NCBI GenBank assembly: GCA_020831885.1
Contig: JAFIFU010000009.1
Coordinates: forward strand, 1-64,000
Direction of reading: 5' to 3'
Source: Ectothiorhodospiraceae bacterium
Lineage (GTDB): Bacteria > Pseudomonadota > Gammaproteobacteria > Nitrococcales > Aquisalimonadaceae
Length of the DNA stretch: 64,000 bases
How positions within the stretch are numbered: the stretch's first letter is position 1; the number at the start of each line of letters is the position of its first letter. The notes below the pieces were generated by a model. The model was not told where the DNA came from. It searched no databases and was given only the letters and a program-made list of their open reading frames with translations. A program made the translations under genes and the position numbers. Shown here piece by piece: positions 30,688 to 34,183 of the stretch.

Positions 30688-30885
30688 ATGCAACGCCACT
30701 ACAAGCGCTGGCGCGTTATCGTCATCCTCCTGCTCATCGGCGGCGCGGTGGTGGCGGATCACATCGACAGCCCCACCTTCCGCATGAACATGGGTGAAGG
30801 GGGGCTGGAGACCACCCTCACCCAGCGTCAGAGCCAGACCAGCGCCTGCGCGCCCTGCGGCGCACCTTGCCGACCCGAAGACTGA
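30688..30885 (+). CDS. small membrane-anchored protein with Cys-rich tail
   Basis: Predicted 65 residues. One N-terminal membrane segment (about residues 9-23, after basic RHYKRWR) and a periplasmic tail ending in a Cys cluster, Cys54, Cys57 and Cys61 (ACAPCGAPC). ATG 30688 is preceded by GAGG at 9 nt; an alternative ATG at 30679 is too close to it. It starts 13 bp after the YeeE/YedE stop, so it is probably the third gene of the sulfur operon. I do not recognise the family. A role as sulfur acceptor or metal site is speculation. Confidence 0.6.
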   Translation: MQRHYKRWRVIVILLLIGGAVVADHIDSPTFRMNMGEGGLETTLTQRQSQTSACAPCGAPCRPED

Positions 30886-31049
30886 CGCCTGTCCCGCCTG
30901 CCGCAGGGATAACCGATCCGGGATCGCCGGCCCGTGATCCGTCGGCTCCGCCCCCACGCGGCCCATGCCACATCCGGCTGGCATGGCGTTACCTTCTGAA
31001 AGCTTAGTAACATACGCGGGCAACCCGCTGAATCCGCAGGAGCGCACTT

Positions 31050-32138
31050 ATGGAAATCCACGGGCGCCCGATCGGCGAACGGATCGACTGGCTGATGGAC
31101 CTCAGCCACCGTCATGCGGCCCGTTTCTCCAGCCCCGAAGCCCAACTGGCCCGGCACCGTTACCTGGCAGAGCACGATACCGCGCTGGTTGCCTTGAAGT
31201 GCATGGATGGTCGCATTCATCTCCCCCACGCGACCCGGACGCCGCTGGGCATCATCCGCCCGTTCCGGAATCTGGGCGGCATCTTCAACCTGGGATGGCC
31301 TTACCTGGGTGAAATGCTCACCGACACGGTGGAGGAAGCCGTCGGGCAGGGCCGCCGGGTGCTGCTGATCATCACCTACCATTATTCCCGTGGCGACCGC
31401 TCCCGGGGATGTGCCGGTTTCGACTGCGACCGCGAGGCCGCTTTCCGGCATGCCCTGGAGATCCGGGCCCAGGTGGAGACCATCTACGGTCGCGCCCACC
31501 AGACGGTTTATCCTCTGGTGTGCGGTTTCGAAACCGACCTGGACGCACTGATACTGCACGGCACGGACGGCCGGAGCATGGATCTGTCGGAGGAGGACTC
31601 AGCCGAGAACGACGGGTTGCTCCCCCGCCTCCAGGCATTGTTACCTGACATGCCCTGGCCCATCCTCCGGGACCTGTTACCATTGGTCCAGGGCAATATC
31701 GGGCATGTGAACGAGCGCCGTCACCAGGACCGCCAATTGGATATCGAGCACCGGGAGTGGGTGATCTGTGTGGGGCGCGGCTTCGACTTCCTGCACGTCC
31801 CCAATGTCGCCCTGATTATCGGCCCTTACAGCCCGGACCTGTCCCACCCCATCCGGCAGGCAGCCGGCATCATCCGCGCGAACATGACCCAGGGGCGCAT
31901 ACCCGACGACGGATTTCTGCTGCTCAGCTCCTCACCTTATGAGGAGTATGGCGTGGACCGGGCCCGGGCGATGATGAAATCCCGCTTCCTGGCGGACTTC
32001 GCCGCCACGGTGATCCGCGATGCGGAACCGGAACTCGCGGCACTGATGATCCAGCGCACCGCTGTCCTCAATTGGCAGAGCCGTCGTCTGGAACCACTGC
32101 TCGACTCGATCGAAACCGATCCCGATGCCGTTCAGTAA
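31050..32138 (+). CDS. CsoSCA-like beta-carbonic anhydrase
   Basis: A 362-residue soluble protein. The N-terminal half has ALKCMDGRIH (Cys51, Asp53, Arg55: the Cys-x-Asp-x-Arg signature of beta-class carbonic anhydrases) and, about 55 residues later, YHYSRGDRSRGCAGF with His111 and Cys121. The wide His-to-Cys spacing of 10 is like carboxysomal CsoSCA (11) and unlike ordinary beta enzymes (His-x2-Cys). Expected reaction: CO2 hydration to bicarbonate at a zinc site. No carboxysome shell or RuBisCO genes are in the window, and the rest of the protein is of unknown role. Start ATG 31050 is about 10 nt after GCAGGAG. The 3' end overlaps a bPH2 gene by 14 bp. Assignment is by motif only. Confidence 0.65.
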   Translation: MEIHGRPIGERIDWLMDLSHRHAARFSSPEAQLARHRYLAEHDTALVALKCMDGRIHLPHATRTPLGIIRPFRNLGGIFNLGWPYLGEMLTDTVEEAVGQGRRVLLIITYHYSRGDRSRGCAGFDCDREAAFRHALEIRAQVETIYGRAHQTVYPLVCGFETDLDALILHGTDGRSMDLSEEDSAENDGLLPRLQALLPDMPWPILRDLLPLVQGNIGHVNERRHQDRQLDIEHREWVICVGRGFDFLHVPNVALIIGPYSPDLSHPIRQAAGIIRANMTQGRIPDDGFLLLSSSPYEEYGVDRARAMMKSRFLADFAATVIRDAEPELAALMIQRTAVLNWQSRRLEPLLDSIETDPDAVQ

Positions 32139-32673
32139 CGCCCGGCTGGATCCAGCCAGGCTGCCCCGCCTGGAAGAACTCCCACTCACGGGGGTGTCCC
32201 GGGCCTACGCTCGCTATCGCCTTGCACACAGTCTGCTCGGCTGGATTCCGGCTCTGGTGGTGCTGGCCATGCTGCCGCCCCACGGACCCTGGCCGGACTG
32301 GCTCCCCCTCGTCGGCGCTCCCCTCCTGGCCGTGCTTGGCCCGCTTCACAGCGGGCTGAACTGGGTGGAGGCCCGCGGTCGCGCCTACGGCCTGCGCGAG
32401 CACGATCTGGTGTACCGCAGCGGCCTGCTGGTCCGCCGCACCCGCATCCTTCCCCTGTCACGGGTTCAGCATGTGGAGACCGTGAGTGGTCCGCTGGAAC
32501 GCCTGTTCGGACTGGTCCGGCTGAACTGTTTCACCGCCGGAGGAAGCAGCGGCGATCTGCAACTTGCCGGAATCACCAGCGAAACCGCCGCGGATCTGCG
32601 GGATTACGTACTGTCCCGCATTCGCGGCGGGCCGGACAGGGAGGATATTGACCCACATGACCGAAGCGGATAA
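32125..32673 (+). CDS. bacterial PH-domain membrane protein, YdbS-like
   Basis: Predicted 182 residues. Two hydrophobic segments (about 35-52 and 58-78) precede a bPH2 domain with GLREHDLVYRSGLLVRR and the family core LPLSRVQHVET, followed by GPLERLFGL. YdbS-type proteins occur with YdbT partners. The start overlaps the carbonic anhydrase gene by 14 bp and the stop overlaps the next gene by 17 bp, so all three are likely one transcript. Function unknown; some Bacillus homologues give resistance to antimicrobial peptides. Confidence 0.8.
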   Translation: MPFSNARLDPARLPRLEELPLTGVSRAYARYRLAHSLLGWIPALVVLAMLPPHGPWPDWLPLVGAPLLAVLGPLHSGLNWVEARGRAYGLREHDLVYRSGLLVRRTRILPLSRVQHVETVSGPLERLFGLVRLNCFTAGGSSGDLQLAGITSETAADLRDYVLSRIRGGPDREDIDPHDRSG

Positions 32674-34183
32674 CGGCACGGCCTGGCAACGCCTTTCGCC
32701 GTGGGCGGTCCTGTTCCTGCTTGTCCGCGGCATCGTGGATTTCATCCGCCAGAACCTGCCCGTGGTGATCGGCGCCGGGGCCTGGGTGGCTTTCGTCGAG
32801 CGTGTCGGGATGCAGCAACTGCTCGCCATTGGGGCCACGCTGCTGGCTCTGGCCCTGTCGCTCACACTGCTGTATTACCGCCGTTTCCGTTTCCGCCTGG
32901 ATGATGACGTGCTGCGGGTCCAGAAGGGGCTGATCCGGCAGGTGGAAGTCCGGATCCGGGCCCAGCGCATCCAACAGTTGGCCCTCGAACAGCCGGCATG
33001 GATGCGCCCCTTCGATATTGTCCGCCTGTCGCTGGATACGCCTGGCGGTGTCACCACCGAGGTGGAATTGCCCGGCATCCGGCGGAGCCTGGCCGAAGAA
33101 CTGAGCAAACGCCTGGACAGTGCCCGGCAACAGGGCGCGGGGGATCAGTCTGCCCCGGCCTCAACGAAGCCGGACACCCTGTTCCGCATTACGCCGGTCG
33201 CGCTGACCCTCCACGGCTTATCCAGCAACGCGGTCTATCTGCTGCTCGCGGCCATCGGTCCGTTTCTGCGTCCGCTGGAAGGCCGGATCCGGGAGCGGCT
33301 GGAGCGGGAAGAGCCCGTCCCATGGCTGCAACCACTGGCCGACACCCCCTGGCTGTCGGTGCCACTCCTGCTCGGCGCCCTACTCCTCGCGCTGATGATG
33401 GTTTCTGTCGGCGCCGCCTGGCTGCGCTATTTCCGCTACACGCTCACCCGCCAGGGCCGGTACTACGTGCAGCGCAGCGGCCTGTTGAACCGACGGCAAC
33501 AGACACTGTCCGCCGACCGTCTCCAGGCCGTGGAACAGGTGCAAACCATGCTGGGCCGCTTGTTGGGCCGTTATCATCTGGTGTGCCGGCAATATGGTGG
33601 CCCGCAACCAGCCGATCAGGCCGGTCGTAGCTTTCTTGTTCCGGGCCTGGACCGGGGAACCGCCAACCGTCTGTCCGTACTGTTCCTCCCGGGGCTGGAG
33701 CCCCGGGAGGATCTGCAACCGGTCCATCGGGCATACCGGCGGGCCCTGGCCCTCCGGTACACAGCAGTGATCGGCCTCACTGGGCTGGCGCTGGCTGTCT
33801 GGCAGGGTTCCGGTTGGTGGTTCCTCCTGACCGGCGGCGCACTGGCCGCGACCTGGCCTGTGGCTCACCTGCGCTGGCGCCTGCTGGCCTGGGCCGTTGG
33901 TCGGGATCACCTGATCGTTCGCCGCGGGCTGCTCGGTCAGCGCACCACGCTGTTTCCCGTGGAGCGGGTCCACGCGGTGCAACTGCGGCAGAGCTGGTTT
34001 CAGCGACGGCTGACGGTGGCCACGGTACAACTGACCCTCGCCAGCGGGCCTGTCCTGCTCCCCTGGTTGCGCGAATCGCAGGCGCGGGCACTGGCGGACT
34101 GGGTGCTGTATCGGGTTGAAACCCGGGAATTGCCGCCGGCGGTTCCGGGTACAATGACAGCAGGGGCCGCGGAGACACCATGA
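32657..34183 (+). CDS. bacterial PH-domain membrane protein, YdbT-like
   Basis: Predicted 508 residues with repeated bPH2 modules separated by membrane helices: the first around RLDDDVLRVQKGLI / AQRIQQLALEQPAW, the second around LTRQGRYYVQRSGLLNRRQQ / LSADRLQAVEQ, the third around DHLIVRRGLLGQRTTLFPV / ERVHAVQLRQSWFQRR. This matches YdbT partners of YdbS. Start ATG 32657 overlaps the upstream gene by 17 bp. Function not established. Confidence 0.8.
   Translation: MTEADNGTAWQRLSPWAVLFLLVRGIVDFIRQNLPVVIGAGAWVAFVERVGMQQLLAIGATLLALALSLTLLYYRRFRFRLDDDVLRVQKGLIRQVEVRIRAQRIQQLALEQPAWMRPFDIVRLSLDTPGGVTTEVELPGIRRSLAEELSKRLDSARQQGAGDQSAPASTKPDTLFRITPVALTLHGLSSNAVYLLLAAIGPFLRPLEGRIRERLEREEPVPWLQPLADTPWLSVPLLLGALLLALMMVSVGAAWLRYFRYTLTRQGRYYVQRSGLLNRRQQTLSADRLQAVEQVQTMLGRLLGRYHLVCRQYGGPQPADQAGRSFLVPGLDRGTANRLSVLFLPGLEPREDLQPVHRAYRRALALRYTAVIGLTGLALAVWQGSGWWFLLTGGALAATWPVAHLRWRLLAWAVGRDHLIVRRGLLGQRTTLFPVERVHAVQLRQSWFQRRLTVATVQLTLASGPVLLPWLRESQARALADWVLYRVETRELPPAVPGTMTAGAAETP

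Follow-up and report, generated by a model that had tools for sequence, protein, structure and literature searches.

One gene in the window (the whole 64,000-nucleotide stretch of DNA analysed here) raises the question of what a carbonic anhydrase (CA) of the carboxysomal CsoSCA type does in a bacterium with no carboxysome. The original prediction offered two answers, namely, an undescribed CO2/bicarbonate device linked to membrane proteins or a protein that has lost activity. The open reading frame was confirmed at exactly the position and length first predicted, with 362 codons (Table 1), and the starts of the relatives mostly agree within a few residues in an alignment of 86 sequences. An alternative frame on the minus strand opposite the gene was rejected, as stops break up the frame read, and a promoter scan upstream of csoSCA2 gave no match.

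Table 1. Features of the csoSCA2 locus in window coordinates.
Feature	Position	Strand	Description and basis
AGGAG, likely ribosome-binding site	31038..31042	+	7 nt 5′ of the ATG; sequence itself
csoSCA2 gene	31050..32138	+	362 aa, stand-alone CsoSCA-type beta-carbonic anhydrase; PF20686, partial TIGR02701, structure match to 8THM/2FGY/9G4T, clade
Codons Cys51-Met-Asp53-Gly-Arg55	31200..31214	+	First zinc ligand and Asp-Arg dyad (predicted); C51, D53, and R55 invariant in 86/86
Codon His111	31380..31382	+	Predicted zinc ligand; invariant in 86/86; aligns to the YHFS motif of CsoSCA
Codon Cys121	31410..31412	+	Predicted zinc ligand; invariant in 86/86; aligns to GCA of CsoSCA
Signature DIEHREWVICVGRGFDFLHVPN...GP, second zinc-less half-domain	31740..31826	+	Aligns to nDIGHAERYISVGDGFDEVQIRN of HnCsoSCA; many invariant columns
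bPH_2 membrane protein (YdbS-like)	32125..32673	+	14-nt overlap with csoSCA2; PF03703, 62.7 bits; local neighbour, no conserved partner
Multi-bPH_2 membrane protein (YdbT-like)	32657..34183	+	PF03703, 138.5 bits in 3 stretches (scanned from 32672); ATG at 32657 inferred from sequence; local neighbour

The original prediction depended on a match to a CsoSCA profile, and one was found. PF08936, the profile it had proposed, is absent from the Pfam scan, but the CsoSCA catalytic domain is matched there as PF20686, at 27.2 bits against a cut-off of 21.5. TIGR02701, the NCBIfam equivalog for carboxysomal CsoSCA, is matched with E = 8e-10 and 38.1 bits, so that its cut-off of 241 bits, and with it the carboxysomal equivalog level, is missed. 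PF00484 (Pro_CA) gave no match up to E = 1 in the Pfam scan. Among solved structures, 2FGY (HnCsoSCA) was reached at E = 4.6e-5 by the single sequence and at 2e-10 by the CsoSCA2 family profile, and both searches revealed a second, weak HnCsoSCA stretch in the C-terminal half-domain. Because of the matches to PF20686, TIGR02701, and 2FGY, the motif of C51, D53, R55, H111, and C121 is not a chance occurrence.

Structure prediction, also proposed at the outset, gave a CsoSCA-like beta-CA fold. The AlphaFold2 model, built with 49 sequences, has a mean pLDDT of 92.5 and a pTM of 0.90, and Foldseek places three CsoSCA structures (8THM, 2FGY, and 9G4T) at the top of its PDB matches, well ahead of all others, with E about 1e-15 and TM scores of 0.69-0.73 by query length, followed by the tandem beta-CA of Porphyridium and other beta-CAs. 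Identity to the CsoSCA structures is about 19% over the structural alignment. Two helices of the model, 8-26 and 29-41, precede the first strand and form a short N-terminus of about 40 residues, as in CsoSCA2. In a maximum-likelihood tree, 49 CsoSCA2 and 21 carboxysomal sequences are split on one branch (SH-aLRT 100), and the window sequence pairs with that of a same-genus locus, L002; the tree is a quick one with a midpoint root and some long branches, and finer placements are not relied on. Judged by its sequence, the window protein is a member of CsoSCA2, or “non-cso” CsoSCA, and not a carboxysomal CsoSCA: the long N-terminal domain is absent, the score stays below the TIGR02701 cut-off, the tree places the sequence outside the carboxysomal clade, and the genome has neither a shell protein nor a canonical RuBisCO.

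Cys51, Asp53, Arg55, His111, and Cys121 are all invariant in the 86 aligned sequences (lowest identity 39%), which span Gamma- and Betaproteobacteria, a delta-proteobacterium, and Patescibacteria; conservation is very high beyond the active-site residues as well. Asp53 and Arg55 presumably have their HnCsoSCA counterparts in Asp175 and Arg177. The zinc ligands of HnCsoSCA are Cys173, His242, and Cys253 (PMC12646314), and C51, H111, and C121 correspond to them in the alignment. The identities and positions of the five residues were thus correctly predicted, whereas their spacing is close to that of CsoSCA without being identical: the Cys-to-His distance is 60 residues versus 65-68 in the carboxysomal sequences read and 69 in HnCsoSCA (C173/H242), and the His-to-Cys distance is 10 versus 11 (H242/C253). 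The His-Cys gap of canonical beta-CAs is 3, as the host copy shows with HYGC (L083/L085). Since the five residues are invariant in 86 sequences, the loss of activity first considered appears unlikely. The second half-domain aligns to its HnCsoSCA counterpart and is also conserved across relatives. At the positions opposite the ligands, located by an alignment of the half-domains to each other by eye, it carries V-G-R-G-F-D, where HnCsoSCA has V-G-D-G-F-D, and this would fit a dead second site.

The host genome, which is 99.99% complete, contains no BMC domain shell protein, and a carboxysome was ruled out on this ground. With the PF20686 match and the beta-CA site in place, the notion of a CsoSCA-type carbonic anhydrase without a carboxysome is borne out. 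BMC proteins are absent from 47 of 50 carrier genomes, and two of the three that have them are Ectothiorhodospira species. RuBisCO-family matches occur in 23 of the 50 carriers, many of them low-scoring, as expected of RuBisCO-like proteins. A canonical RuBisCO was not found in the host genome, whose only match to the family, a divergent RuBisCO-like protein, is truncated at the end of a contig; a canonical RuBisCO partner for CsoSCA2 is therefore unsupported. The L146 homologue of this protein, in a frame of 371 aa, carries K-D-D-H in the position of the form I K-D-D-E. A phosphoribulokinase-family gene lies immediately 5′ of the RuBisCO-like gene both in the host's own genome (L084 6263-8287, at the end of contig C114) and in L146 (272-2872). 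Form I RuBisCO is present too in a same-genus genome (L147).

Besides CsoSCA2, the host encodes a single canonical beta-CA (L083) and no alpha-CA. In a survey of the alpha and canonical beta classes, a canonical beta-CA was present in 36 of the 50 carriers and absent in 14, including all five Patescibacteria, and 13 of these 14 also lack an alpha-CA, the exception being L053. Ectothiorhodospira mobilis (L064) and Vreelandella massiliensis (L077) carry CsoSCA2 and no detectable canonical beta- or alpha-CA, and the same is observed in the Patescibacteria (L038, L039, L042, L049, and L063). In the host family, canonical beta-CA occurs in 2/6 genomes with CsoSCA2 and in 4/8 without it, several of these being incomplete MAGs. 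Replacement of canonical beta-CA by CsoSCA2 as a general rule was rejected, as 36/50 carriers keep both and the family gives no clear pattern. CsoSCA2 may nevertheless be the main CA in some carriers, because 14/50 have no canonical beta-CA.

The relatives are widely distributed. A scan of genome contigs yielded 111 related stretches, and the 80 loci kept belong mostly to Halomonadaceae, Marinobacter, Nitrincola, Saccharospirillum, and Ectothiorhodospiraceae, with Rhodocyclaceae/Azonexaceae, Thiobacillus, and Patescibacteria as further main groups. PF20686 was detected in 71 of 370 sampled genomes of the class, nearly always in the carboxysomal form (277-392 bits, mostly in frames of about 500-576 aa). 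CsoSCA2, scoring above 470 bits with its family profile, was present in 7 of the 370, host included, and one of the seven (G143) has the carboxysomal form too. The Patescibacteria sequences (L038, L039, L042, L049, and L063) are 57-59% identical to that of the window; the four included in the tree form one clade, and its position beside a delta-proteobacterial sequence suggests transfer.

The gene order in the window is rhodanese, YeeE/YedE-type transporter, 65-aa peptide, csoSCA2, bPH2, bPH2, and DUF4124. L002 has the same order and the same 14-nt csoSCA2/bPH2 overlap, so the adjacency reported earlier is real. The 65-aa peptide (30688-30885, plus strand), between YeeE and csoSCA2, contains a single hydrophobic segment, carries the motif CAPCGAPC at its C-terminus, and has no Pfam match; a near-identical copy lies at about 7966-8175 in L002. 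The sulfur genes noted nearby are likewise present, although they are a local feature, linked to csoSCA2 in the window and L002 only among the 80 loci surveyed. Neighbour clustering over 81 loci gave lineage-specific neighbours only, and a conserved partner gene was thereby ruled out. The gene nth adjoins csoSCA2 in 31 of these loci, mostly of Halomonadaceae, where a run of rnf-type genes ends in nth and csoSCA2 follows directly (L018, L023, L051, and L075 among others), an order that is conserved yet lineage-specific.

In the membrane-linked device first suggested, CsoSCA2 would act with the two bPH2 proteins encoded just downstream. In the host genus, a co-translated bPH2 pair would have recruited the free enzyme to the membrane, as an undescribed local complex for CO2 trapping or bicarbonate handling. 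The 14-nt overlap in both the window and L002 speaks for it, and L034 keeps the same strand order. However, the bPH2 genes of L034 are 3.3 kb from csoSCA2, behind two genes for a glutamine/glutamate tRNA synthetase and a GGDEF protein, and the gene-neighbourhood survey, in which some contigs are short and not fully judgeable, found bPH2 adjoining csoSCA2, outside the window, only in L002 among 80 related loci. It is not adjacent in the same-genus L122 or in the family members L123 and L124, nor is it nearby in the same-genus genome G001. The Halomonadaceae have nth, behind the rnf genes, as the neighbour, and Marinobacter has others. Pairs of bPH2 genes are moreover common without a csoSCA2 gene. 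Such a device is very improbable.

A CA fold turned to another small substrate, as in carbon disulfide hydrolase, or to CO2/bicarbonate sensing is somewhat less improbable, though still doubtful. Folds of the beta-CA type do carry out other chemistry, and the CS2 hydrolase 3TEN is weakly matched by the CsoSCA2 profile (E 0.17); sulfur genes adjoin csoSCA2 in the host, and the very high conservation outside the active site could be read in the same way. Conversely, the closest structures are all CsoSCA, the full set of CA ligands is retained along with the Asp-Arg dyad, and the sulfur-gene linkage is confined to two loci. The least probable alternative is a degenerate, inactive leftover of a lost carboxysome operon: the host indeed lacks shell genes, but no other carboxysome remnants were found, the clade is separate from carboxysomal CsoSCA with full support, the active site is invariant across the family, and CsoSCA2 is widely distributed.

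On the evidence of sequence and model, CsoSCA2 most likely works as a carbonic anhydrase in the cytoplasm. It is highly probable that the protein is a free zinc enzyme within the CsoSCA2 subclass, folded as a pseudo-dimer that has a single active site and serves the CO2/bicarbonate balance of general metabolism. We infer its zinc binding, catalysis, oligomeric state, and physiological role as follows. One polypeptide would comprise two beta-CA-like halves, the first with the zinc site Cys51/His111/Cys121, where the Asp53-Arg55 dyad would hold the metal site open for water, and the second with its metal site lost, acting as a structural partner, so that the single chain would mimic a beta-CA dimer with one active site. 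Having no long N-terminal region for RuBisCO binding and hexamer building, it would not be packaged but would work in the cytoplasm, interconverting CO2 and bicarbonate to serve carboxylases and pH/CO2 balance, in this host probably alongside the canonical beta-CA. If CsoSCA2 is a working CA, its deletion in L064 or L077 should create a need for high CO2.

The kind is not undescribed, as the original prediction had supposed. PMC9164163 (2022) names csoSCA2 genes and describes a second, more truncated CsoSCA variant with all catalytic residues, Patescibacteria being among its hosts; it finds the lack of study of csoSCA2 surprising, and it does not mention Halomonas. The same “non-cso” clade, without the hook domain, appears in PMC11086599 (2024), and CsoSCA2 served as an outgroup in PMC12646314 (2025). 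A name search of the open-access literature found no assay of any member of this widespread and well-conserved group. Dimer-contact loops are missing in CsoSCA2 according to PMC9164163, so its oligomerisation, and hence its stability or activity, is uncertain; because Cyanobium CsoSCA requires an allosteric activator, as stated in PMC11086599, activity of CsoSCA2 alone cannot be assumed.

Among known systems, canonical beta-CA (Pro_CA, PF00484; host copy L083) shares the Cys-Asp-Arg/His/Cys zinc site and the beta-CA core with the window protein but differs in its His-x2-Cys spacing and single dimerising domain. Carboxysomal CsoSCA (H. neapolitanus 2FGY/9G4T and Cyanobium 8THM) shares with the window protein the catalytic fold, the zinc ligands, the Asp-Arg dyad, and a single active site per pseudo-dimer. 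Its frames, however, are 504-576 aa long versus 362 aa, it has a RuBisCO-binding, hexamer-forming N-terminal region that the window protein lacks, the zinc site starts at residue 173 in HnCsoSCA versus residue 51, and its genes lie in cso operons with shell and RuBisCO genes, unlike the window gene. With CsoSCA2/“non-cso” CsoSCA, as portrayed in the available parts of PMC9164163 and PMC11086599, there is no decisive difference, the local bPH2 operon being a feature that those parts do not mention. Length (about 350-360 aa), short N-terminal helices, an active and a defunct half-domain, the full set of CA residues, no link to carboxysomes, a clade of its own, and hosts that include Patescibacteria and heterotrophs are common to both. 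The window protein is an additional member of this kind, described in 2022 yet uncharacterised, and it bears on the suggestion in PMC9164163 that the carboxysomal enzyme arose from a free ancestor.
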